This document shows positions 3,859 through 23,460 of a DNA stretch of 64,000 nt, one piece after another (position 1 is the first letter of the stretch; the number at the start of each line of letters is the position of its first letter). The notes under the pieces were generated by a model that made no database searches, was not told where the DNA came from, and was given only the letters and a program-made list of their open reading frames with translations. The DNA is from Darksidea phi (Eukaryota > Ascomycota > Dothideomycetes > Pleosporales > Lentitheciaceae): NCBI GenBank assembly GCA_030770425.1, contig JASJFT010000151.1:47349-111348 (forward strand), in the 5' to 3' direction. The translations under genes and the position numbers were made by a program.

Positions 3859-5440
3859 TCATTTCGCAAACCATCCCGCCAATCCCTTCCCCCTTTCTTT
3901 CACCTTACGTTCTTTCTCCTCTCTTTCCTTTTTCCTTGTCAAGATGAGCGTCAACATATCCCGATCTCTCCTCTCCAGCTCTTCTCTATTCATAAGCCCC
4001 TTGCCGCCATCGGGTTTCTCGTCCGCCTCCTCCCCCACTTTTCCCTCTACGATTCCCATCGCCTTCGTCAACCGCAGGATCTTGGAAGAAAGCCACTCCC
4101 TATGCGCGAGCCCAAGCGCCCAATGCGCAGGCAAATTAGCGTACCCAAGGTAAGCACCGATAAGTGCCCCGGCTGCGGCACCGTTGGTGTCTGAGTCGCC
4201 TCCTTCCATGATCAAATCGGTCATGAGATCCTCGAAGAGAGTTTTTGGGGGGAGCGTCGAGTTGCTGGCCTGTATACAAAACCGCAATGCCAGGATGGCG
4301 GAACCGAGACATTTGTAGACGTATCCCATCTCCTTGTGGTTATCTAGATGTAAATCGGCGTACGAGGTGACGTATACGTGGCGCTCAAATTCTCTGCGGT
4401 CAAGATGGCGTTTGATCTCCCATTCCGTGAGTTCAGTGGAGAGCCCGGGATTTGTGAGCTCGGGTCGAGAAAGAACCCAATCATACGCTTTTTCAATGGT
4501 CTCGTCCACCTCTACTTCACTGGATATCTCACCGCGAAGAATCCCTCGGATCAACCCAACAGAAATGCAACATGCAACCGTACACCTCGGATCCGCGTGC
4601 GTTGTCATCCCTACTCCAGCCGCCAACCTCCAACAGCCCTCTTCCTCCATTCCCACCCCCAAAACGCCAATAGGATGCGTTCGCATTAAACTTCCGTTGG
4701 GGGCAACGTGGCGGGCGGTCTTCACCCAGCGCTTGATGGCTGTTTCCTCTGGATTGGAAAGATAGCATGTGTCGGTTACGACACCACCGACGAGGGCGCC
4801 GATACCGCATGGGAATCTGTTTAGGGCGCGGAGACCTTGTTCAACCCAGATTCGAAGACGAATGGCGAAATCTTGGGGGAGTGTGGTTGCGAGGTTGGGA
4901 TTGGCAGTGGAAGAAGATGGGGAGAGAGAGGTGGAGCGGGCGTGGAGATACGAGAGGATGATCAGGAGGGCTTGGTCGGTGTCGTCAGTCCAAGCGCAAG
5001 GTTCAAAGCGAGCTATAAGCTGTCAGTCATCGTGCAGGAGCATTTCCTTTGTATCTAAAGAATCCCATGCGGGCGTTTGTTTTGGAAGTGTTTATTTGAC
5101 CGTGATGAGGTGAAAACTTACTCCTGTGGCTATCACCATACCACTCCGTAACTTTCCCTACCAAACTAAAATGCCTCTCTTTATACACCTCTGCACATGT
5201 CGCCTTTGGCAGAAACTCGGTGTATAAGCCAATCGTATCGCCCAGCGCTGACCCAATAATACACCCGTAGATCTTATCGACCAAAGTTAATCGGACGAAT
5301 GGGTGGGCATCCAGGAACTTCAATTCATGCTCTGGTGGTTCTGGCTTTTGTAAGTTCGGTGAAGGTTGCTGGTCGTCCTGGATCGATATCTGTTGGAGTA
5401 CTGTGGATGATGGTGATTCAACGTGTACGAAGTCTGCCAT
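3859..5440 (-). CDS. ADP-ribosylglycohydrolase family protein
   Basis: Two exons (5440..5122 and 5012..3859, intron 109 bp) encode 490 aa. The splice joins WYGDSHR to FEPCAWTDDTDQAL, the expected metal-binding context. The family's Mg-binding pairs are both visible: WTDDTD near residue 113 and GGDSDTNGAAAGALIGAYLG near residue 380. An N-terminal DKIYGCIIGSALGDTIG block is also typical. Enzymes of this family remove ADP-ribose from proteins or related adducts. The exact substrate of the fungal branch is unknown to me. The C-terminal tail is a lysine/glutamate-rich coiled-coil-like segment (ERRDRDMLTLILTRKKEREE). No signal peptide is seen, so it is probably cytosolic. The start is the only in-frame ATG before the conserved core. 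Confidence 0.85.
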
Positions 5441-6204: not shown

Positions 6205-6678
6205 TCAGCACTGCAACCCATTAGCGATCACTCGTCCATTCATCCAAGGATTTTGTTCTATGATCGAGAACGACTGGGGAAAACTAACATTCAGCACCGG
6301 CGACGGACATCCACCTTGTGCTCTTTGGTAACAAGCCATTTCCACGTAGTGCTTGAATTGGCATAGCTGGTCCTTAAGTTAACCAACCGTTCCCTCATTC
6401 CTCGGGGCTTATGCCCATCCCCTATCTCCCACGGCGCTTACCTCTTTGTCCGAGAACACACCAACTGGAATGACCGGTCTATCGCAGACGCATCCGGTCT
6501 TGAACGTCGGCGTCGGTTCTTTGTGCGGGTTCCTATGGCCAGTCCCCGTCCTTGTCCGGTTTCTGCTCTTCGTGGGGAGGGGGACAGGGGCGGATGTGCT
6601 GAGAGCGTCGACTTCAGCGGGGTATGGGGAGGCAGTGACCATGGCCGCAAGAGCGAAGACGACGAGTGCGAGACGCAT
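6205..6678 (-). CDS. Small secreted six-cysteine protein (effector-like)
   Basis: Two exons (6678..6442 and 6366..6205) separated by a 75-bp intron (GTAAGC..ACCAG) encode 132 aa. Residues 1-17 (MRLALVVFALAAMVTAS) are a clear signal peptide. A Ser/Thr/Pro-rich basic segment follows, then a cysteine-bearing domain. It has six cysteines: two in TGCVCD, then LCQF, MACY, GGCPS and a C-terminal LQC. An even number in a short secreted protein suggests three disulfides. Reading exon 1 straight through stops soon after and loses four of the six cysteines, which supports the splice. Size, signal peptide and cysteines fit a candidate effector or antimicrobial protein. I recognise no family. It lies 1.2 kb from the UstYa-like gene, in the same orientation. 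Confidence 0.65.
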
Positions 6679-7917: not shown

Positions 7918-8871
7918 TCACACATCCTCATAAGGCATCGCATTGTCATTAGCCCACTGCTTGATCTTGTCAAAGTTCCTACACACGTGATGGCTTTCAT
8001 AGTCCGGCCAGGGTCCATCCCTACCCTCGACATCGTGGAACGTGAACACATTCACGTCAGAAAGACACATTAGGTTCATTCGGAGGATTTCAATACAGTG
8101 GTCTAGAAAGCCATTAGCGTTGCACTCACGTGTGGAGGAGAGGATAGCGCGGGATGAACGTACCAAGATGTGCCCTCACTTTCTCCGGCTTGTCATTCGT
8201 ATCCGACCACCACAATTTGGTGTAGTACTCTGGGTATGTCGACATGCGCAACAGATTGAGGCAGTGTAGTTGATGGAACACTTCGAGACCAACACGATAT
8301 CCCGTTTCGCCAGTTTTGGGGTCGGTGACCATGAGGGAGTCGACAGGCTTTCGAAGTTTGGGAAACTCCTCCATGGAGACCATCTGATCGGGCACTGGTT
8401 GATCGTTAGCTTGGCGAGGCAAGAAATTTAGGGTAGAGGAGCGTACGATACGCAATGTCCATCCAAGCATTCTCCACTTCGTCTGTGATCCCAACGTATT
8501 TCGATTCGTTGAGCGGGTTTGGCAATTTGAATTGGACGTGCTCATATTCTACTACATGCATCGCAGGAGCTTCTCTTCGTCAGTAAAAAGCTCGTCGAGA
8601 CCGCATAAGGATGCCGCTTACAGAATATTCCAAACTCGTCCATTAATTTGGCAGCAGAATGCGTTGACTTCGTCCGTTGCGAATACACGGTACAAACAAG
8701 TGTGAGGGCAGACATAATGAATACGAACAGATTAGCTAATAGCAAGTACATCATTCCTTTCCTTTTCCTCGTCTCTGGGCTGCTATGTCCGTTGAGGAAA
8801 GACGTGTTCTCGTTGTCGCCCTGGAAATTTAAATCGTCATAGTCGACCTCGGATTGTAATCGTTTCTCCAT
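7918..8871 (-). CDS. UstYa-like (DUF3328) oxidase, candidate RiPP-modifying enzyme
   Basis: Four exons (8871..8622, 8569..8447, 8394..8164, 8102..7918; introns 52, 52 and 61 bp) encode 262 aa. The layout is that of the UstYa/DUF3328 family: short cytoplasmic N-terminus, one membrane helix (about residues 41-63, MYLLLANLFVFIMSALTLV) and a lumenal or extracellular domain. Both diagnostic HxxHC motifs are present: HQLHC (about 165) within exon 3, and HLDHC, completed only by the last splice. That completion strongly supports the model. Known members (UstYa/Yb in ustiloxin, AprY in asperipin) oxidise and cyclise core peptides released from a secreted repeat precursor. The neighbouring gene encodes just such a precursor and is divergent, with 1,094 bp between the starts. 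No second DUF3328 gene, peptidase, methyltransferase or tyrosinase is nearby. Confidence 0.88.
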
Positions 8872-9965
8872 TGTGATGAAGGGTGCTGCTAGATTTGCGA
8901 GAAAATGAAGTAAGAGGGAAAGAAGAATATAAAAGCCGACCTGTGATGTTAGGGAAGCGAAAAGAGGTGCGCTCAACGCTGGAGATCTGAAATCGAAGGA
9001 AACGATGTCGAAGCAGAAATGGTGCCTGGCGGGAAAGCCTAGTCTTTCATGATGCATGCCAGATTCGTTACCGCTCAAGTGGATGTCAACCTCCCGCATG
9101 CGTGTAACAAGGGTAAGAATGTTGGAGAATATCATCTGAGGCAAGAATACCCTAGTCAAGCATATTTGCGACAATATCCTTGTCGCGCATGACGCAGCTG
9201 GTTGGCTCGCGAACAGTTTTGGTTTCGCGATGTGCGCTAAGTGATGTCTTCCACTCACTACCGTTTCATCTTGGCGATCTGACAAAAGAGCCGGAACATG
9301 ACACTCTGGTGGCACGTTCTTTCCACGAAAAGCCCCAAAAGCTATCCGGGCCGGGTTTGAGTGTCCCGCTGTTTTAGTGCCGCAGCATCTTCGCTGCGCT
9401 GCTTAGACCCAATGAGCAGTGTCAATGACATATAAGCCTTGTTTCAGAACGGAGTATGATTTGAGGAACTCAGTCACGATGCTAGGTAGCCCAAATGACG
9501 AGATGGTGAGGCTAGACAGTAAACGGTTCTCTGGTGCGCAGCTCCGCTCACACTTGCTCGGCAAGGTGCCGCCTTACCCATACAGTTGCCGATCCATTCG
9601 CCAGTGCCTAAACAAAAGACTGCTCGAAGCATTGTATGTTTCCTGACCCAGATAAAACACCGTCGCTCTAGGCTGCCGAGAAACTGGACGTTTCTATATC
9701 CATTTCAGCGTTGGCATCAATGCCATGTCGTCTCAGGAGCCAAGGCGTCGCCTAATAGGGCAATCAGTATGGGGTTAGCTTCTCAATGAAAGCTCGAATA
9801 TAAGGTGAGTAAACGTCCGACCATGTTATTCAAAAGGCGACTTCAAAAGGCGACTATTGTTCTTATTCATTCACATACCAACTCCTTTTTCATACTGCCG
9901 GTCAGGTCCTTGCATTCAGTTTATCTCTATCATTTAATTATTCACTTAATACGCGTGCCTTCATT
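8872..9965. promoter_or_regulatory. Divergent promoter region of oxidase and precursor genes
   Basis: A 1.09-kb spacer between the two divergent starts. Near the precursor it carries an A/T-rich TATA-like stretch (ATATAAGG, about 9798-9805) and a perfect tandem 13-bp duplication at 9829-9854. Both lie 110-170 bp before the precursor ATG. Short open frames within the spacer do not look coding. Co-expression from a shared control region is inferred from layout only. Confidence 0.45.
9829..9854 (+). repeat. Perfect 13-bp tandem duplication upstream of precursor gene
   Basis: TTCAAAAGGCGAC occurs twice head to tail (9829-9841 and 9842-9854), 112 bp before the precursor start codon. Its position suggests a duplicated factor-binding site, but chance duplication is possible. 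Confidence 0.55.
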
Positions 9966-10701
9966 ATGAAGTTCGCAGGAGTTATCCTTCTAGCTCTTGG
10001 AGCGTCAGCATACGTGGTGAATTATCAGCCGAAGGGTGATGCAGTAGAAGCCCGTAATCCGGCAACGGTCAGTCCACTTCCAATTATCCCTCGAAGTAGC
10101 TAACGTCAACTAGGGAAGTGGTGCGGCCTTTGACAATCATGCCGTTAATATCGTAGCTAGGCACCGTGAGTTTTAGCCTTCTCACGAAGGAGTGAGACTT
10201 GCTAACACTCCAAAGACAAGGGCAAGGGCAAGGGCAAGGGCGGTGCTGGTGGTGCTGCCAAGGGCCTAGGAGCGTTGTTCGGAGCCAACAAGCGTGAGGC
10301 TCAGCTTGAGCCAGAAGCAGAGGTTGAGCAGATTGAGAGGCGTCATCGTAAGTTGACTGCGCCATCCACGACGGAAATAGTCTAACGACATACCAGATAA
10401 AGGAAAGGGCGGTGCTGGTAAAGGTCTCGGCGGCGCTGGTAAAGGTCTCGGTGCCTTATTCGGAAACAACAAGCGAGAAGTGGAGCCTGAGGTTGAGAAT
10501 ATTGAGCGCCGACATCATAAGGGTAAAGGTGGGGGTAAAGGTGGAAAAGGTCTTGGAGCTCTATTCGGAGCGAATAAGAGAGAAATTGAGCCCGAGTTTG
10601 AAGGCATTGAACGCCGTCACCACAAGGGCAAGGGCGGCAAGGGCAAGGGTGGTGGAGGCGGCGCGGGCAAGGGCCTTGCTGCCCTATTTGGTGCGAACTA
10701 G
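9966..10701 (+). CDS. Secreted Kex2-type repeat precursor (candidate RiPP/KEP precursor)
   Basis: Four exons (9966..10067, 10114..10165, 10216..10347, 10397..10701; introns 46, 50 and 49 bp) encode 196 aa. Residues 1-15 (MKFAGVILLALGASA) are a signal peptide and a short propeptide follows. Then come four imperfect repeats. Each opens HHKGKG, runs through a Gly/Lys-rich stretch to GLGALFGAN or a close variant, and (units 1-3) continues KR, an acidic spacer such as EIEPEFEGIE, and RR before the next HHKG. The KR and RR pairs are classic Kex2 sites, so processing would yield basic Gly/Lys peptides and acidic spacers. This is the layout of fungal dikaritin precursors and Kex2-processed repeat proteins. 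With the adjacent UstYa-like gene, a cyclised peptide product is likely. Unlike classic dikaritins the core has Phe/Leu but no Tyr. An antimicrobial role is an alternative. The frame ends at TAG, just where units 1-3 have their KR. Confidence 0.8.
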
Positions 10702-10827
10702 CCCGAGACTCAGATCGAAGCTTGTGCGGCTGAAGATCAACATGAAGAAATCCAGCGTCGTCATCACAAGGGCAAAGACGGAGCCAGTGGTGCGAGCAAG
10801 GACTTGGGGGCTTTTTTCGGGAACTGA
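10702..10827 (+). pseudogene. Fifth repeat unit stranded beyond the stop codon
   Basis: Directly after the precursor's TAG, the same frame stays open for 41 codons to a TGA (10825-10827). It still shows the repeat pattern: an acidic spacer, RRHHKGK, then a diverged Gly/Ser/Lys stretch ending LGAFFGN. The stop occupies the codon where units 1-3 carry the Lys of KR, and the next codon is Pro instead of Arg. This looks like the original gene end, cut off by a nonsense change and now drifting. Translation by stop read-through cannot be excluded but has no visible support. Confidence 0.65.
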
Positions 10828-11483: not shown

Positions 11484-12908
11484 TTACCTCAGAGGATAGA
11501 ATAAGCTGGTTCTGGAGCGCTTACAGGGTATCGCAAGACTGAAGCCGAAGCCGATGGGTGGCGGCGGCGGAGGAGGAGGAAATGGAAGAGGAGGTGGAGG
11601 AGGAGGTGGAAGAGGAAATGGAAGAGGAAGTGGAAGCGGTGGAGGAGGTGGTGGGTTGGTCCGCCACTCAACCTCCACATCGCAAACTGCGACTCGACCC
11701 AATAAATCCTTCAACGGACCATATATTCCTTCCTCGATTGTCGAAGCTCCGAAGCTAAACCGCCACCAACTAAGCACCATTCTAATCGACTTTAACCCTC
11801 TCATGTCGTCTAATAGCCGACAAGCCACATCCCATGTCGTCGCTTTATCGTCTAATTCGTGCTTGGGGAGTTTTCTGTAGTATTTAATACTTGTACCATG
11901 GGCAAGAGGTGTGTAGTCCATTGGACAATTAATCGAATCAGCCCTTATATAACGGCATAGTGACTTCTTGTCATTGAAAAGACAATACTGGTTTACTTCG
12001 GAGAAGTGGATTATATCGACCGGTGATAAGTCCTGGAACCCAAAATAGACATGTTGGATGTTGTCGAACCGCTGTGGAAGTAGGGATGCTGAGAATGCAA
12101 TGAATGAGTATACGTCGCAGAAAGAGAACCGAAAGTTCCGATAGACCAGGCCAATGACTTCGGAGTATCTGGAGCATTCAGCATTGCGTTCGGAGAGTAC
12201 GGGCTTGGATCGTGGCAGTTGGTCGGCTTACATGACTCTGCAAGTTTGAAGCAAAGGGAGGATGTCAAGGCTACTTCTTCTTGGCCGCTGTATCATAGAC
12301 ATATCACTTACGTCTCCTGAACTGACTGTTGAGCCCCCATAAGCAACGGATTCCTTGTCTTCTTCATCCTTGACACGGAACGAAGTCAGCCTCCCTTTCT
12401 TCAATATCACATACGTATCCCCTCTTCCAAGATACTCTTCCCAGATCAAAAGTCTTAGTTCAGCCGGTAAGCTCATCAGTCGCGAAATGTCTTGCTGTGC
12501 CGTCTTCTTGCTCCTAGTCCCAAATCGTGGCTTCTCCAAAGGCAAACTCAGCGCTCTCTTGCGCTGCGTCACTCTAGGCGGCTTCATGCTTGCCTTGTCA
12601 AGTCTTCTTTGGTTCCATTCGCTCCGTCGATATGAGGCCCAATGATAAAGGCCCCACGGAAAGATCACCGCTAGCATATATCTCTTAATACTCCGACCTC
12701 GACGCCATCTGGGCATCGATGACTCGGTGTTATAACTGTACGAGGAAAAGGAATCGTTCTCGCTGTCGGAATTGTTCTCGCTGTCGGAATTGTTCTCGCT
12801 GTCGGAATTGTTCTCGCTGTCGGAATTGTTCTCGCTGTCGGAATTAGTCCTCCGAAAGAGGCCCAGCCGATGCAAGAGACGCAATCTGCGGGTGGGTAGG
12901 CGTGCCAT
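11484..12908 (-). CDS. DUF7730 / F-box-like domain protein with low-complexity ends
   Basis: Two exons (12908..12232 and 12168..11484; 63-bp intron) encode 453 aa. The core pattern is common in fungal DUF7730 or F-box-like proteins: LMSLPAELRLLIWEEYLG, then LDILPLLQTCRV-IYSEVIGLVYRN completed by the splice, then FRFSFCDVYSFIAFSASLLPQRFDNIQHV and a later WDVACRLLDDMRGLKSI. Function is unknown; such proteins may act as substrate adaptors. Odd features are five tandem copies of a six-residue acidic unit (NSDSEN) near residues 21-50 and a long proline-rich run near the C-terminus (coded at 11554-11655), both encoded by simple repeats. A large gene-poor, A/T-rich tract lies upstream of its start. 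Confidence 0.7.
12757..12846 (-). repeat. Five-copy 18-bp in-frame tandem repeat
   Basis: Five head-to-tail copies of an 18-bp unit (plus-strand TTCTCGCTGTCGGAATTG) lie inside the DUF7730-like gene and encode repeated NSDSEN. Copies are near identical; the last diverges at its end. Copy number is likely variable among strains. Confidence 0.85.
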
Positions 12909-14169: not shown

Positions 14170-16962
14170 TCACCCACTCCCCTTCAGCTCCTCCAACCTC
14201 GCCTTCAGCCTATTCCACGCCTCACTATCCTCCCAACTATCTTTTCCCTTGCCCATAACACTACGAGCAGCACTCCTAGCCTTGAATTTCCAATCCTTTG
14301 CTACTAGTTCTCCACTTCCAGCTGCTAGTCCCTCAGTCCTCTCCCGCGGCCCCAGCGTCTCATAGGCATCCACAAGATCTACTGTCTGGGTTACTACTGC
14401 ATTCCACTCTCTCTCTCCCTTGCTCTCCCAATTAGGCTGACTTGTCACAGCGCGCCACGCCTTTTCATGGCATTCAAGCGCTGAGGCTGGGCGGTTTGTG
14501 TGGATGTAGAGTGTTGAGAGGATGGTCCATAGCTGAGGGGAGAAGGTAATAAGAGGCTTGACATGGTGTTCGATAAGCTCGTTCGTGAGGCGGGAGAGTC
14601 CGGGCTTAGTGATATCAAAGGATTCCGAGGATTGGATAATGTGGCGAACCAGGAGGTCTAGAATCTCGCCGTCGATACATTTCTCGCCGTCAGTGGAGCC
14701 GCGAAGATCGCAAATTCGACGTTGCGCGTTAATGATGTCGTTGTAGGACGGGGGCTCTGTGGATGCGGCGACGGCGAGCACATTGGACCAGATGCGGTAG
14801 CTGTCGTGCTTGAGGGCTGCAGCGCGTTTGAAGGCTTTCAGGGCGTCGCTACGGGGGTGAGAAGTCACTCGTGCATTGGGATGCTCAGCATCGGTGTTTG
14901 AGGTGGATTTGGGCCGAAGATGGAGGAGTGCGGCCGCGAGGTTACTCCACGCTTCTGCATCTTGGTCATCAAGTTGGACGCAGCGAGAGAAGGCTTCCGC
15001 GGCGTCTTTAAAGTGCTGGAGCTCAAGCCTTGCGCATCCCAAGGCGAACCACGCGGGATGGTTCAAGGCGTTAACCTTAAGGGAGAGAGCGTAGGCTTCT
15101 GCTGCCTTCTCGTAGTTCTTTTCGACAAAGTACCGTTGACCGAGAGATCGCTGAGCCCGAGTGTATCGCTTACCCGAAACCTCCCACGCTTTCTCGTACA
15201 TAGACAGGTCCTTGTCAATATCGCCCAAAATGCAGTAGAGTCGCGGTGCCTCTGCTGGCGGCGGGTTCCGTTCGGCGCCCTCCCACTTCTCCTCCTCAAG
15301 ATCTACGTTTGCATCGTTACCGCGGTTAGCATGAAAGAGCTGCCGGCGAACTATCTTTTTCGCTTTATCCTCCTTTTCGGTAGCTGCCCAACACAAGGCC
15401 GCTTCGGCCCACATTTCCAACCTCTCGTAGATCTCAAGCGCTGAGCGAAGACCGCCGACACTGACCCAGCGAGCTGCGAGTTCTGCCTCAAGTTCCCATC
15501 GAGAGGGAGAGCAGAGCGGGAACACGTAGCGAAGACGTTCATTTACCGGAGCCGACTCTCCATCTTTCACCTTTGGCAAGAACGATGTTGCTTGCTCATC
15601 GGCTTCTCCGCTCGTAATTGCATTAATATCGGATGTCTCTACAATGACTTGGTCGACTAGAGCCTGAAGCTGAAGAAGGCCACGTTCCATTGTTCGAGAG
15701 CGATAGCCTTCTATTCGACTTCGCACAAGCAGTGCCTGCGTGTAAACTTGCCAGTTCGAACTACCGCCATCCAAAACCCGAGTGGCATAAGGTAAAGTCT
15801 CTTCCCTCGTAAGTCCGTCGGCGGGGTTTGTGTTGGTGATGGAAGAAGCCAAAGAAAGCAGTATAACCGAGTCTAGTGGGTCTAGTAGAGGCTGGTTCTC
15901 CGGGTGTAGCGAGCCAAGGCCAGCTGGTAGCGAGGACTTGGATCTGACCTCTGTGCTAGCCGCTTCTGGAGTAAATGATATCGACTCGAGAAGTGTATCG
16001 TCGTTGAGATTCAAATTCTCCGGCCCCGACGCAGCAGTCGTTGATGTCCCATTCGGTTCCGTACCCGCGCTTCGGGCAAGAACTAACAACTGGCTAGTGT
16101 CTTTCTCTTGAAACTTTGTTCTCTTTCCCATCAACCCAGTCAACGCAAACTCAAACTTCCTCTCCGAAGCGGATTGATCAAGATCCGCTTTAGCCTTCTT
16201 TTCTAGCCCGTGATGCGTATGAATGGCCGCTCTTTCTAGCAGAAAGTGCACATGTAGATCCTTGATATCTTTCTCTTTACTCAATGAGACGACCTGACTC
16301 TCCAGAGTACCGAGATCTTCGTAAATAGCATCCTGCAACGATGGTGCAACCTCTGAGAGCAACCGCTGATGAACAAAGTTGACTCTCAGCTTGGCCCAAG
16401 TAGAGGCCTGAATATTTTTCTGCAGCGGCGGACTCATCAGGATTGCTTTGGCAAGACATAAAAGCTCGATATTCGGGGTGAGCTTGTACGCTGCAACACC
16501 ATCTGCGCTCAGCGAAGTGACAAGCTCTGCCCGCAGATTGCTTAGTGCGGGCCCGTCCAACGCTACTTCCTTGGGTAGCAGAGCATGTGCAGAATTGAAG
16601 GGAAGGGGTGGTCCCGTAACGTTTGACTGCATGAAAGCGTAGAGAGCAGCAATGGCCACAGTGAAGAACAGATGTTGACTGTAAGCCGCCGTTTCCCGTA
16701 CCGGAGCATCCGAACCCTTGCTTCTGTTCGACAATATGAGGCTTAGGCGATGAAAGACGTAGTCGGTCCACGTGGGGAAGTCTTCCTTCTGGACGTTTTT
16801 GGTAGCCTCATTGTTCTGGTGCCCAAGTACAAGCTGTACCTCCTCATACTGGAATACGGTGAAGAAGTCGCCTTTTTCGACAGCGCTAAGCGACTCTTCA
16901 ATGACAACGACAAGTTCTTCGGGGAGAGTGCTCCGGAAGTAGTTGATAAGGATATCACCCAT
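14170..16962 (-). CDS. EMW1: TTC27/EMW1-like tetratricopeptide repeat protein
   Basis: An intronless frame of 930 aa. The frame extends 42 codons further upstream, but only to a GTG. The first ATG (MGDILINYFRSTLPEEL, good context with A at -3 and G at +4) is the start. The C-terminal half has consecutive TPR helices, such as RSLGQRYFVEKNYEKAAEAY, NHPAWFALGCARLELQHFKD and DDQDAEAWSNLAAALLHLRP. The length and the long non-TPR N-terminal half match TTC27, whose yeast relative Emw1 is essential for cell-wall integrity. Family members are thought to act as cytoplasmic scaffolds or chaperone partners. The last 30 residues (WEDSEAWNRLKARLEELKG) form a conserved-looking tail. Confidence 0.8.
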   Translation of the reverse strand: MGDILINYFRSTLPEELVVVIEESLSAVEKGDFFTVFQYEEVQLVLGHQNNEATKNVQKEDFPTWTDYVFHRLSLILSNRSKGSDAPVRETAAYSQHLFFTVAIAALYAFMQSNVTGPPLPFNSAHALLPKEVALDGPALSNLRAELVTSLSADGVAAYKLTPNIELLCLAKAILMSPPLQKNIQASTWAKLRVNFVHQRLLSEVAPSLQDAIYEDLGTLESQVVSLSKEKDIKDLHVHFLLERAAIHTHHGLEKKAKADLDQSASERKFEFALTGLMGKRTKFQEKDTSQLLVLARSAGTEPNGTSTTAASGPENLNLNDDTLLESISFTPEAASTEVRSKSSLPAGLGSLHPENQPLLDPLDSVILLSLASSITNTNPADGLTREETLPYATRVLDGGSSNWQVYTQALLVRSRIEGYRSRTMERGLLQLQALVDQVIVETSDINAITSGEADEQATSFLPKVKDGESAPVNERLRYVFPLCSPSRWELEAELAARWVSVGGLRSALEIYERLEMWAEAALCWAATEKEDKAKKIVRRQLFHANRGNDANVDLEEEKWEGAERNPPPAEAPRLYCILGDIDKDLSMYEKAWEVSGKRYTRAQRSLGQRYFVEKNYEKAAEAYALSLKVNALNHPAWFALGCARLELQHFKDAAEAFSRCVQLDDQDAEAWSNLAAALLHLRPKSTSNTDAEHPNARVTSHPRSDALKAFKRAAALKHDSYRIWSNVLAVAASTEPPSYNDIINAQRRICDLRGSTDGEKCIDGEILDLLVRHIIQSSESFDITKPGLSRLTNELIEHHVKPLITFSPQLWTILSTLYIHTNRPASALECHEKAWRAVTSQPNWESKGEREWNAVVTQTVDLVDAYETLGPRERTEGLAAGSGELVAKDWKFKARSAARSVMGKGKDSWEDSEAWNRLKARLEELKGSG

Positions 16963-17334
16963 GATGAATCTTCGGAGGGGATCAGGGGAGTTTGCGAAAT
17001 TCTTGGTGGGCGATGATTCATATGTCGTGGAGAAAAATAGGCAGAGCGCTAAACCGTTTTGGAACGGCGGGCGACCACGCAGCCCCACTTTGGGTGTAGT
17101 GCCGCTGATAATCAGTGTATACGGAGTTTTTCAGGGTCTCCAGGACAAGGAAGTATAAAACATTCCATCAAGCTTTCATTACTCATTGGTGACCGGCGCT
17201 GAAGTACAGGCCTTGATGTTCCCGCTACGATCGACACCAAGAGCGCAGCTCCACAGACCATTCCAACATGGCAATACAAAGATAAAAGAAAAGTTCCTAA
17301 AGACTAAGGGTAGCTCTCGCGGCATAGGGGATGT
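16963..17334. promoter_or_regulatory. Upstream region of the TPR gene
   Basis: A 372-bp gap between two minus-strand genes. It should contain the TPR gene promoter and the 3' end of the glycine-zipper gene transcript. No distinct motif was identified. Confidence 0.4.
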
Positions 17335-19278: not shown

Positions 19279-22200
19279 ATGAGCACGCCGGAAATCCATC
19301 CACTGCCGCCTTCGGCCAGTGTTGCGCCGACGCCAGCGGACCAGATCCAAATTGTCGAAGATGCAACTACGGAGAGGCATCTAGAGGTCGAAGCTACAGA
19401 TGACGGCAAAGGGGTTAGCATTGCGGAGAAGAAGAAGGGGAAGAAGGAGAAGGGGAAGAAGCAGAAGAAGAAACCAGAGCCTGGTCTCAAAAACTACATC
19501 GTAAACGCATCTGCACCGAACGTTATTTGCACGCCACTGACTTCGAGCTAGAGAGTATTTTCGTACGGTACGAAGCTTGATGCACTTTTAATGGGGCTGA
19601 GCTGCCTCACTTCGATTGGCGCTGGCATTGCAATGCCTCTGATGGTAACATGGCCTCGCGGATAACGGCTCAGTCTCTCGCTAACATACAAATAGATCGT
19701 GGTCTTCGGCCAGTTAATCAGCACCTTCCGCGACTACTTCACTCCCGGCACTACCGTAACCAAACAGGAGTTCCAGGCAGTAGTAAACAAACAGGCTCTC
19801 TACATTGTCTACCTCTTCATCGCCAAGTTCTGTTTGTCGTACGTTTCGATGCTCACTGTGCGAATCAGCGGACTACGAATGTCTGCTGCCCTCCGATTAG
19901 CCTACCTCCGCGCTACATTCGCCCAACCGGTAAGCGTCATCGACACCGTCTCCCCAGGCAAAGTCAGCACTAGAATCACAACCTCGGCGAACACTATACA
20001 GCTAGGCATCTCACAGCACTTTGCCATGTTGTTCCAGTCATTATCTTTCACTATCTGTCTCTATGTCGTCGCCTTCATCAAAAGCTGGCTCCTCACGCTC
20101 ATCGCCAGCACTTCGCTCCCGTTCATTATGATCGTCTACGGGGCTCTTGTTCCCCCATTCATGAAGATTCACAAAGTAACGGAAGAGTACCATGAAGAGG
20201 CTTCTGCTTTGGCTTTCGAGATGTTTTCCTCGATCCGCATCATCGTAGCGTTCGGCGCTGAAGCTAAGTTGGCTAGACAACACGAAAATCTTCTTGAGAA
20301 GGCGGCGAAGAACGAGAAGAAAGCAGCCCCCCTCATGGGACTAATGATGTCTCCGTCGATGATGGCCATGTATGCGACCTATGCTTTGACATTTTGGTTC
20401 GGCATTCGGCAGTACAGCCGTGGCAAAACGACGAACGTGGGCGACATCGTCGTGGTGCTTTTTTCGGTCATGATGGCAGTCATGAACATTGGTCGAGTCG
20501 CAGCTCCCATCATCGCTCTCGTCAAAGCAGCGACAGCTGCCACTGAGCTGTTCGCAACCATTGATGCCGAGGTGCCCGATACATCGGGTTACAGGGATCC
20601 AGACGTTTCTGCCGACCTCGATATCTCGTTCCACGACGTGGCGTTCTCATATCCGAGCAGACCCAATGTACAAATCCTGAGAGGGTTTTCTGCGCGGTTT
20701 GAAGCCGGGAAGGTCACTGCCATCGTTGGTCCCTCGGGTTCCGGGAAGTCGACGATTGTCTCCTTGATCCAACGATGGTACGACCTGCATGGCACTACAG
20801 CGGTGGAAACCACAACCGACAAGACGAAAGATACTGGGGAAGACACCGAGCAATCCACGAAGGGAAAGAATGACAAGGAGAGCAAGAAGGCCAAGAAGGC
20901 CAAACAGGACAAAAAGTCTATCAAGTCCGACGACGACAAGGAAGAGGTCGACCTCGGTCCGAACACGTGCACCGGAAGCGTAAAAATTGGTGACGTTGAT
21001 CTCCGCAATGTCGACCTCAAGTGGTTTCGATCACAGATCGGGCTAGTCCAACAAGAGCCTTTCCTATTCAACGATACACTCTTCAACAATGTGGCGTTTG
21101 GCCTCTGCGGTACAAATTACCAGGAGGCATCGAAGGACGAGAGAATGGCTATGGTCAAGGAAGCCTGCAAAGAGGCGCACGCCGACGAGTTCATTGACAG
21201 ACTACCCGAGGGCTACGATACATTGGTGGGAGAGAGCGGCACTAAGCTTTCCGGCGGCCAACGCCAGCGCATCGCTATTGCGCGTTCTATCGTTAAGAAG
21301 CCACCGATCCTCATCCTCGACGAGGCCACCAGCGCCATCGACGTCAGAACCGAGCGCATCGTCCAGGAAGCTCTTGACCGCGTCTCGCAAAACAGAACGA
21401 CTATCGTTATTGCACATCGGTTGAGTACGATCAAAGCGGCGGACAAGATCATGGTAATGCGCAAAGGAAAGCTTGTTGAAGAGGGCAGTCACGAGGAGTT
21501 GCTCAAGGATGAGGAGAGCATCTATTATGGCCTCGTTCACGCGCAAGAGCTCGCCATGGAGGCCGAAGAGGAGACTGATCTTGAAGACACCGCCTTCCAA
21601 AAAGTCAAAACCGCTGATACGGAGAAGTCAGAGGCCGCACACACGCGTTACGAACATTCTTCTACCGAGGAGAAGGAGCTCAAGAACAAAAGCTTTTTCG
21701 CAAGTGGTGGTCGGCTAATCGCGGAACAGCGCCACCATTGGGTTTTATACTCCACCGCCTTTCTAGGGATACTTGTAGCTGGAGCGGTGTATCCCCTCCA
21801 AGCATGGATCTTCGCCACCGTTTTGGATGTCTTCACGTTGACAGGACAGGATTTTGTAAGGGAAGGTTACTTCTGGTCGGGAATGTTTGCGGTTGAAGCT
21901 GCTGGTGTATTGTTTGCATACACTGCCATTGGTTTCTGTACTCACTTGGTCGGCGTCTCTATCACTCGCCGCTATCGACAGGAGTATCTCAACAACATGA
22001 TCAGGAAACGGATCCCTTTCTTTGACGCCGAGGGGCATTCCGCTGGTTCTCTCACGTCAAGCGTGAGTTCTGACGCCCAGAACTTACAACAACTCATGGG
22101 TACGGAGATGTCGTTAGCAGCGATCGCTTGTGTCAACCTCGTGGGCTCTACGATCATTGCATTCGTCTACGGATGGAAGCTCTCACTGGTCGCCCTTTTC

Positions 22201-23460
22201 TGTGCTCTCCCACCCATCCTCGCTGCCGGCTATCTACGTCTCAGTCTTGAGATGAAATTTGAGGAAATGAACTCTGCCGTCTTCGCGGAGAGCTCCCAGT
22301 TTGCCACTGAGGCCGTCGGTGCGTTTCGAACTGTGCTATCGCTTATCATGGAGGACATGATTGGTAATCGCTATCAATCGCTGCTGAAGCAGCATGTTAG
22401 CAAGGCTTTTGGCAGTGCAAAGTTCGGCACGATTGTCTTTGCTGCTTCGGACAGTGTTGACCTGGCTTGCGTGGCACTGACCTTCTGGTATGGTGGTACG
22501 CTCCTCGCCTCCCGCGAATATGGAATGAAGGACTTCTTCGTCATTTATACTGCTATCATACAAGGCGCCCTTGCCGCAGGCCAGTGGTTCAGTTTCGCGC
22601 CCAATATCGCGGCGGCTACCGGTGCCGCAAACCGTATTCTAGACATGCGTCCCTCGCAGAAGGTACCCCCACCTACCTACGACGCCATCAAGAACACCGC
22701 CGGTGGTGTTGGCATCGAGTTCAGAAATGTCTACTTCACATATAAGTCACGGGACACGCCGGTGCTGTCGAACCTCAACATCAAAGTGGCGCCTGGTCAG
22801 TTTGTAGCCTTGGTTGGCGCTTCAGGATGCGGGAAAAGTACGTCTATTTCACTGCTTGAGCGCTTCTACGACGCAACTTCAGGAGCGATCCTCTACAACG
22901 ACCAAGTCATCACTTCTCTCGATGCAGCTGAATACCGCAAGAACGTGAGCCTCGTGGCGCAAGAGCCAACGCTGTTCGAAGGCACCATCCGCGAAAACGT
23001 CGCCCTCTCGGTAGACTCAGCTACAGACATCGAAATCGAGCAGGCCTGCACCGACGCCCAGATCCACGAGTTCATCACCTCCCTCCCTGATGGGTACAAC
23101 ACGCGTCTCGGTCCGAAGGGATTATCGCTTTCCGGCGGCCAGAAGCAAAGGTTGTCCCTCGCCCGTGCCCTTCTTCGCCAACCGAAGTTGCTGCTGTTGG
23201 ATGAGGCGACGAGTAGTCTTGACTCCGAGTCTGAGAAGCTGGTTCAAGCGGCTATTGAGCGTGCCGCGGGTGAAGGTGGTCGCACAGTCATCGCTGTGGC
23301 GCATCGACTAGCTACTGTCCAGAAAGCCGACGTCATCTTCGTGCTCGGGAGTGGGAAGGTGCTGGAGAAGGGTGATCATCAGACACTTCTAAAAAAGAAG
23401 GGCGTGTATTATCAAATGGTAGGTTTGAATAACCGTAACATGATTGTGCATGAAAGCTAA
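19279..23460 (+). CDS. Full-length ABCB (P-glycoprotein/MDR-type) transporter
   Basis: Three exons (19279..19500, 19552..19644, 19696..23460; two 51-bp introns) encode 1,359 aa in the order TMD1-NBD1-TMD2-NBD2. A Lys-rich cytoplasmic N-terminus precedes TMD1. NBD1 has Walker A GPSGSGKST (about 450), signature LSGGQRQR (about 622) and Walker B ILILDEATS. NBD2 has GASGCGKST (about 1145), LSGGQKQR (about 1249) and LLLLDEATSSLD. Both sites look catalytically complete. NBD1 carries a charged insertion of about 45 residues, rich in Lys/Asp/Thr, between Walker A and the Q-loop. Transporters of this class export hydrophobic drugs, toxins or peptides at the plasma membrane. The gene is about 9 kb from the candidate peptide system, too far to link them by position. 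Confidence 0.92.

Follow-up and report, generated by a model that had tools for sequence, protein, structure and literature searches.

The 64,000-nucleotide stretch analysed here (the window; G000:C59:47349-111348, in a fungal assembly of 51.35 Mb) contains a divergent gene pair, consisting of a gene for a repeat precursor with predicted Kex2 sites and a gene for a UstYa/DUF3328 oxidase, separated by a shared intergenic region. A sequence-only reading of this stretch had described a DUF3328/UstYa protein with both HxxHC motifs, divergent from a signal-peptide protein with four HHKGKG..GLGALFGAN repeats, and both genes are confirmed by the gene models, the motifs and a Pfam match to PF11807. 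The features of the pair, in window positions, are as follows.

9966-10701, plus strand: gene for a predicted Kex2-processed repeat precursor (KEP) of 196 amino acids (aa), exons 9966-10067, 10114-10165, 10216-10347 and 10397-10701.
10162-10289, plus strand: unit 1, 26 aa, HHKGKG...GLGALFGAN, AR before and KR after, holding intron 2.
10344-10470, plus strand: unit 2, 26 aa, HHKGKG...GLGALFGNN, RR before and KR after, holding intron 3.
10513-10575, plus strand: unit 3, 21 aa, HHKGKG...GLGALFGAN, RR before and KR after.
10618-10698, plus strand: unit 4, 27 aa, HHKGKG...GLAALFGAN, RR before and the stop codon (10699-10701) after.
10702-10827, plus strand: vestigial, degraded fifth unit past the in-frame stop, outside the modelled protein.
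8872-9965: shared divergent intergenic region of 1,094 bp between the UstYa gene and the precursor gene.
7918-8871, minus strand: UstYa/DUF3328 oxidase gene, 262 aa, exons 8871-8622, 8569-8447, 8394-8164 and 8102-7918.
8261-8275, minus strand: first HxxHC motif, HQLHC, from sequence and alignment.
8095-8170, minus strand: second HxxHC motif, HLDHC, split by an intron (8164-8170 and 8095-8102), from sequence and alignment.

The precursor gene has three introns (46, 50 and 49 nt, all GT..AG), of which introns 2 and 3 are equivalently placed, within the second codon of units 1 and 2 respectively. Its product starts with a hydrophobic, signal-peptide-like N terminus, MKFAGVILLALGASA, with a hydropathy peak of 2.9 over nine residues from residue 3, as judged by a simple hydropathy rule and inspection rather than by a dedicated predictor. 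The dibasic sites (KR at residues 77, 121 and 156, RR at residues 93, 133 and 168) delimit the four basic units HHKGKG..GLxALFGxN (26, 26, 21 and 27 aa), with three acidic spacers of 14, 10 and 10 aa between them, and it is by this combination of a signal-peptide-like N terminus with repeats flanked by KR or RR (six sites, four units) that KEPs are recognised. The KR and RR pairs which the sequence-only reading had placed at the unit borders are present as three of each, but a single Arg (AR) stands before unit 1. The stretch given in that reading runs to position 10827; the precursor gene is interrupted by introns and stops at 10699-10701, and a degraded unit makes up the remainder. This fifth unit beyond the stop (10702-10827) suggests that the array was formerly longer.

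Six pairs of dibasic sites with alike flanks were found in the precursor and none in 5000 residue shuffles, while six or more dibasic sites of any kind were reached in 22 of the 5000. Between-unit comparison of the four copies gave a proportion of synonymous differences (pS) of 0.81 for the GLxALFGxN core and 1.1 (uncorrected) for HHKGKG, which is near saturation, with a proportion of nonsynonymous differences (pN) of 0.086 and 0 and pN/pS of 0.106 and 0, respectively; the blocks were picked for matching residues, which lowers pN, and the informative part is the abundance of synonymous differences. Near-saturated synonymous change in a peptide that has been kept argues that the units are old, and that both head and tail are under selection on the peptide.

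The homology searches which had been proposed as a check recovered relatives of both proteins. For the precursor, the sole match at E <= 1e-3 (7988 candidates scored) was P0001, a raw open frame of different origin that is colinear with the translated window through exon 2, intron 2, an off-frame unit 1, intron 3 and unit 2. Its alignment score is 246; the portion that precedes the second unit reaches 120, where the best of 2000 shuffles gave 71. This colinearity indicates that another sample contains a homologous gene whose introns sit at the same places. A focused search with 41 precursor residues gave four candidates, none at E <= 10, and the strings HHKGKG, RRHHKG and ARHHKGK did not occur in the main texts of the literature searched (supplements lay outside that search). 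The pN/pS of its units, together with the one colinear homologue whose introns match, marks the precursor gene as conserved.

The UstYa gene model was corrected after alignment to orthologues, and an earlier version with small errors served as query for both the Pfam comparison (PF11807, E 1.1e-55, 189.4 bits against a cut-off of 25, profile positions 2-220 of 220) and the alignment, in which identity was 57-91% to 16 rows that we take, from their genera, to be Pleosporales, and 37-40% to three rows from outside. There were 475 UstYa homologues at E <= 0.001, and the closest among the best 120 of these was from Lentithecium fluviatile (89%), which suggests that the window probably comes from a member of the Pleosporales close to Lentithecium. 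When the UstYa profile was run against viral_contigs and genome_contigs, 66 and 10 stretches respectively fitted the pattern, none of them a relative. Exon 1 encodes one hydrophobic segment, and in the AlphaFold model of the Alternaria orthologue P0003 (mean predicted local distance difference test score 80.2, predicted template modelling score 0.65) the same stretch is a long helix, residues 24-61. Comparison of this model with the PDB gave 127 matches at E <= 10 and none at E <= 0.001, thus the fold gives no clue to the chemistry of the enzyme. A search of solved structures with the UstYa sequence gave none at E <= 1, and a structural basis for UstYa seems to be missing among the solved structures searched.

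The intergenic region contains two short direct repeats of two copies each, and a search of 8872-9965 for inverted repeats found none. It separates a KEP from a DUF3328 gene by 1,094 bp in divergent orientation, and a KEP beside a DUF3328 gene is the arrangement by which dikaritin loci are recognised; the features required of a dikaritin cluster in a study of Venturia are likewise found here (PMC9632046). The suggestion that this is an uncharacterised locus of dikaritin logic, combining a KEP with UstYa, is therefore supported, and we consider it probable that the two genes form a working dikaritin-type pair.

With regard to the rest of the genome, at least 31 PF11807 matches were grouped into 22 neighbourhoods, 20 of which, including this locus, were covered by the KEP count (the stretch on C95 is 5,364 bases long, ended by the contig end). 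A KEP-like gene was present in three of the 20, again including this locus, and in all three it is divergent from UstYa. The count was made with a third detector, which picks open frames that hold a matching pair of dibasic sites and is blind to single-Arg borders such as those of the C1 paralogue discussed below; of the two earlier detectors, the first missed this locus, and the second detected it but not the KEPs on the plus strands of C452 and C17. Over 297,364 bases the third detector returned 12 frames: six in a minisatellite (L019), two on C452 (the KEP and an antisense frame), one on C17, one in L037 and two in the window. The control away from UstYa, consisting of the rest of the window and L017-L020 (40 kb, half of it around the C1 paralogue), is too small to give a rate. 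The two further pairs from the KEP scan are:

C452:153935-154207 (L023 6336-6608): second KEP-UstYa pair, divergent, UstYa match at C452:152257-152994.
C17:8557-8865 (L035 7058-7366): third KEP-UstYa pair, divergent, UstYa match at C17:6297-6774.

The spacing between KEP and UstYa match is about 0.9 kb at the C452 pair and 1.8 kb at the C17 pair, the UstYa genes being putative and represented by their Pfam matches. The C452 KEP has three Tyr-containing units LNSRFAKYxAE with two KRD(A/T)EAEP borders, and the C17 KEP has three Tyr-free units (V/M)VGNLWHxKDD with HKR after the first two, its signal peptide sitting before an intron placed by eye and not having been flagged by the script. Two other frames, L037 1548-2036 (C7) and a basic low-complexity frame at window 11505-11702, were dropped as KEPs, as they have no signal peptide and are not precursor-like. 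The minisatellite at L019 4354-4551 (C59, upstream of the window) is GC-rich and open in several frames with spurious RR repeats, and is probably noncoding.

When 75 residues of the precursor were searched against the genome at the protein level, one place besides this locus came up:

C1:131821-132576 (L017/L018): precursor paralogue with six HHKGKG heads, a hydrophobic N terminus and QRSVE borders.

This paralogue shares with the precursor its HHKGKG heads, repeat structure and hydrophobic N terminus, but it is without the GLxALFGxN tail, has single-Arg borders and consists of one uninterrupted open frame. The single Arg at its unit borders, together with the low-complexity Gly/Lys linkers of variable length in the precursor itself, would fit a precursor that works intact, as a secreted Gly/His-rich surface or wall protein with uncut dibasic sites. 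We consider this improbable, as KR and RR are equally placed in each unit of the precursor with alike flanks, and acidic and basic segments alternate.

The neighbours of the pair in the window, which except for the small open frame were identified in the Pfam scan, are:

3862-5440: frames matching ADP-ribosylglycohydrolase.
6409-6678, minus strand: small open frame apparently encoding a signal peptide, lying some 1.2 kb downstream of the UstYa gene and without a Pfam match.
11487-12908: DUF7730.
14173-17130: tetratricopeptide repeat (TPR) protein.
19696-23457: ATP-binding cassette (ABC) transporter, about 9 kb off the pair and not clearly linked to it.
About 29 kb off the pair: BSP-family peptidase, not clearly linked to it.

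Both PF11807 matches listed in the window are exons of the single UstYa gene, in line with the earlier statement that there is no second UstY nearby, and the same can be said for a tyrosinase or peptidase, neither of which was present in a scan of 10 open frames from the first 27 kb. In 20 scanned open frames of the window (18 of the 28 listed and two shorter ones) neither a tyrosinase nor a methyltransferase came up, a scan which small multi-exon genes could escape. An Rfam scan of the window gave no match. The window further contains a GGA/GGT-rich 12-bp low-complexity array at 11557-11654, and an 18-bp array at 12750-12845 (98%-matching, 5.3 copies) inside the DUF7730 open frame, where it encodes SENNSD repeats.

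The locus resembles those of the dikaritins ustiloxin, phomopsin and asperipin-2a in combining a signal peptide, a Kex2 repeat precursor and a close DUF3328 gene, but differs from them in its units, which are Tyr-free, longer, basic and rich in Gly, Lys and His, and in the lack of a tyrosinase or methyltransferase in the scanned frames. Dikaritins were first defined by a tyrosinase, a methyltransferase, several DUF3328 proteins and a peptidase or transporter, with DUF3328 later becoming class-defining, and two HxxHC motifs have been suggested for recognising DUF3328 proteins related to ribosomally synthesised and post-translationally modified peptides (RiPPs) (PMC12048977). The sequence-only reading had called the system minimal, which is nothing new, as asperipin-2a has a single DUF3328 (PMC7329392). 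In the survey by Umemura (2020, PMC7329392), 22% of 7878 KEPs have a DUF3328 gene within 15 genes, the DUF3328 gene count peaks at the position adjoining the KEP gene, and Tyr is found in 65.6% of the repeats of DUF3328-accompanied KEPs, so that about a third of these repeats are Tyr-free. Among the abundant DUF3328-linked types in that survey, G-3 and G-8 are characterised by di-histidine and P-3 by Trp, the other four by Tyr; the claim that a Tyr-free core is unusual is thus not supported, G-3, G-8 and P-3 being set apart from the types with Tyr and the C17 KEP beside UstYa also being Tyr-free. Type G-8, with DUF3328 near 45/49 of its KEPs (PMC7329392), shares the di-histidine repeat with this precursor, and seven of the ten G-8 genera that we take to be Pleosporales occur among the best 120 of the 475 UstYa matches; the two are likened by di-histidine and genera only, their identity being unproven. 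The RiPP families given in a survey of Pleosporaceae number only three and come from Alternaria, Curvularia and Bipolaris (PMC12278603).

In the precursor, Tyr is absent from unit 1 onward, Cys is absent throughout, and there is one Phe per unit. The victorin core is a Gly/Leu/Lys/Ala/Phe hexapeptide resembling GLGALF, for which a string search of the literature gave no occurrence. Victorin, from Cochliobolus victoriae, likewise has a multi-core precursor, and its ring is closed by joining a Phe side chain to Leu rather than via Tyr (PMC9233826), which leaves unsupported the claim that a Tyr-free core implies a different oxidation chemistry. It is also chlorinated, and its cluster encodes peptidases (PMC9233826); it was compared with this locus by description only. 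More widely, the UstYa family has been linked to desaturation, hydroxylation, chlorination and transacylation (PMC10880069, PMC10512285).

An alpha-type mating pheromone precursor would equally have a signal peptide and Kex2 repeats, and one EA after KR is like the STE13 signature (XA or XP; PMC6339444). We reject this reading on motif and consider it highly improbable, as the alpha-pheromones of Dothideomycetes are described as having two cysteines or PYGXPXG (PMC6339444) and the precursor has neither Cys nor PYG, while DUF3328 was near putative pheromone KEPs in three cases only (PMC7329392).

The main alternative is that the peptides released from the precursor are linear, cationic and glycine-rich, stay unmodified and have an antimicrobial or signalling role, with UstYa acting elsewhere, and one study does treat KEPs as unmodified and apart from RiPPs (PMC7099791). 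Units 2-4 have a net charge of +4 to +5 once the terminal KR is removed, followed by a short hydrophobic tail, as would suit such peptides, and 6120 of the 7878 published KEPs are without DUF3328 within 15 genes (PMC7329392). Several observations weigh against a dikaritin-type pair. No UstYa is present among the PF11807 matches listed for the contig of the C1 paralogue, which means that the HHKGKG head needs no UstYa neighbour, and di-histidine is published at similar rates for KEPs with DUF3328 nearby and for those lacking it (5.7% vs 3.9%, PMC7329392), so that an HH head does not mark out a UstYa pathway. The Alternaria UstYa proteins are 73-74% identical (best 120 of 475), yet this genus is outside the published G-8 list, and there is just one precursor homologue among the 7988 scored candidates. 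The weak step lies in pairing the enzyme with its substrate, adjacency of precursor and UstYa having been read in this one species, and expression, Kex2 cutting and product are all predicted from the DNA. Against linear peptides, UstYa is immediately divergent from the precursor, as at the two other KEPs of the genome (C452 and C17), and the GLxALF tail is constrained here and absent from the C1 paralogue, which suggests that the tail goes with the UstYa locus and the head does not. Release of unmodified linear peptides hence appears rather unlikely.

For the dikaritin-type pair, the precursor would enter the secretory pathway via its signal peptide, and Kex2 would, judging from the sites, cut after KR and RR to release basic HHKGKG..GLxALFGxN peptides of 21-27 aa alternating with acidic spacers of 10-14 aa. 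The divergently encoded UstYa protein, which carries two HxxHC motifs and a single hydrophobic helix near its N terminus, may then oxidise the basic peptide in the lumen, where its likeliest target would be the conserved GLxALF, with a Phe/Leu side-chain link, hydroxylation or desaturation as possible outcomes. A more specific proposal, which we regard as speculative and on balance doubtful, is a Tyr-free dikaritin found throughout the Pleosporales, in which the HHKGKG head, starting with N-terminal His-His after Kex2 cutting, serves for recognition or metal binding, and UstYa joins Phe to Leu within GLxALF in the manner of victorin, so that the product would be a basic linear arm with a cyclic tail.

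The locus looks like a member of a widespread, mostly uncharacterised kind of fungal peptide locus. Among the five dikaritins of one 2022 review, victorin is the only one that we saw described as closed without Tyr (PMC10512285). If nothing is modified at this locus, adjacency alone would be a poor guide to dikaritins; with one enzyme and one precursor, it would be a simple system for asking how UstYa acts on a peptide without Tyr.

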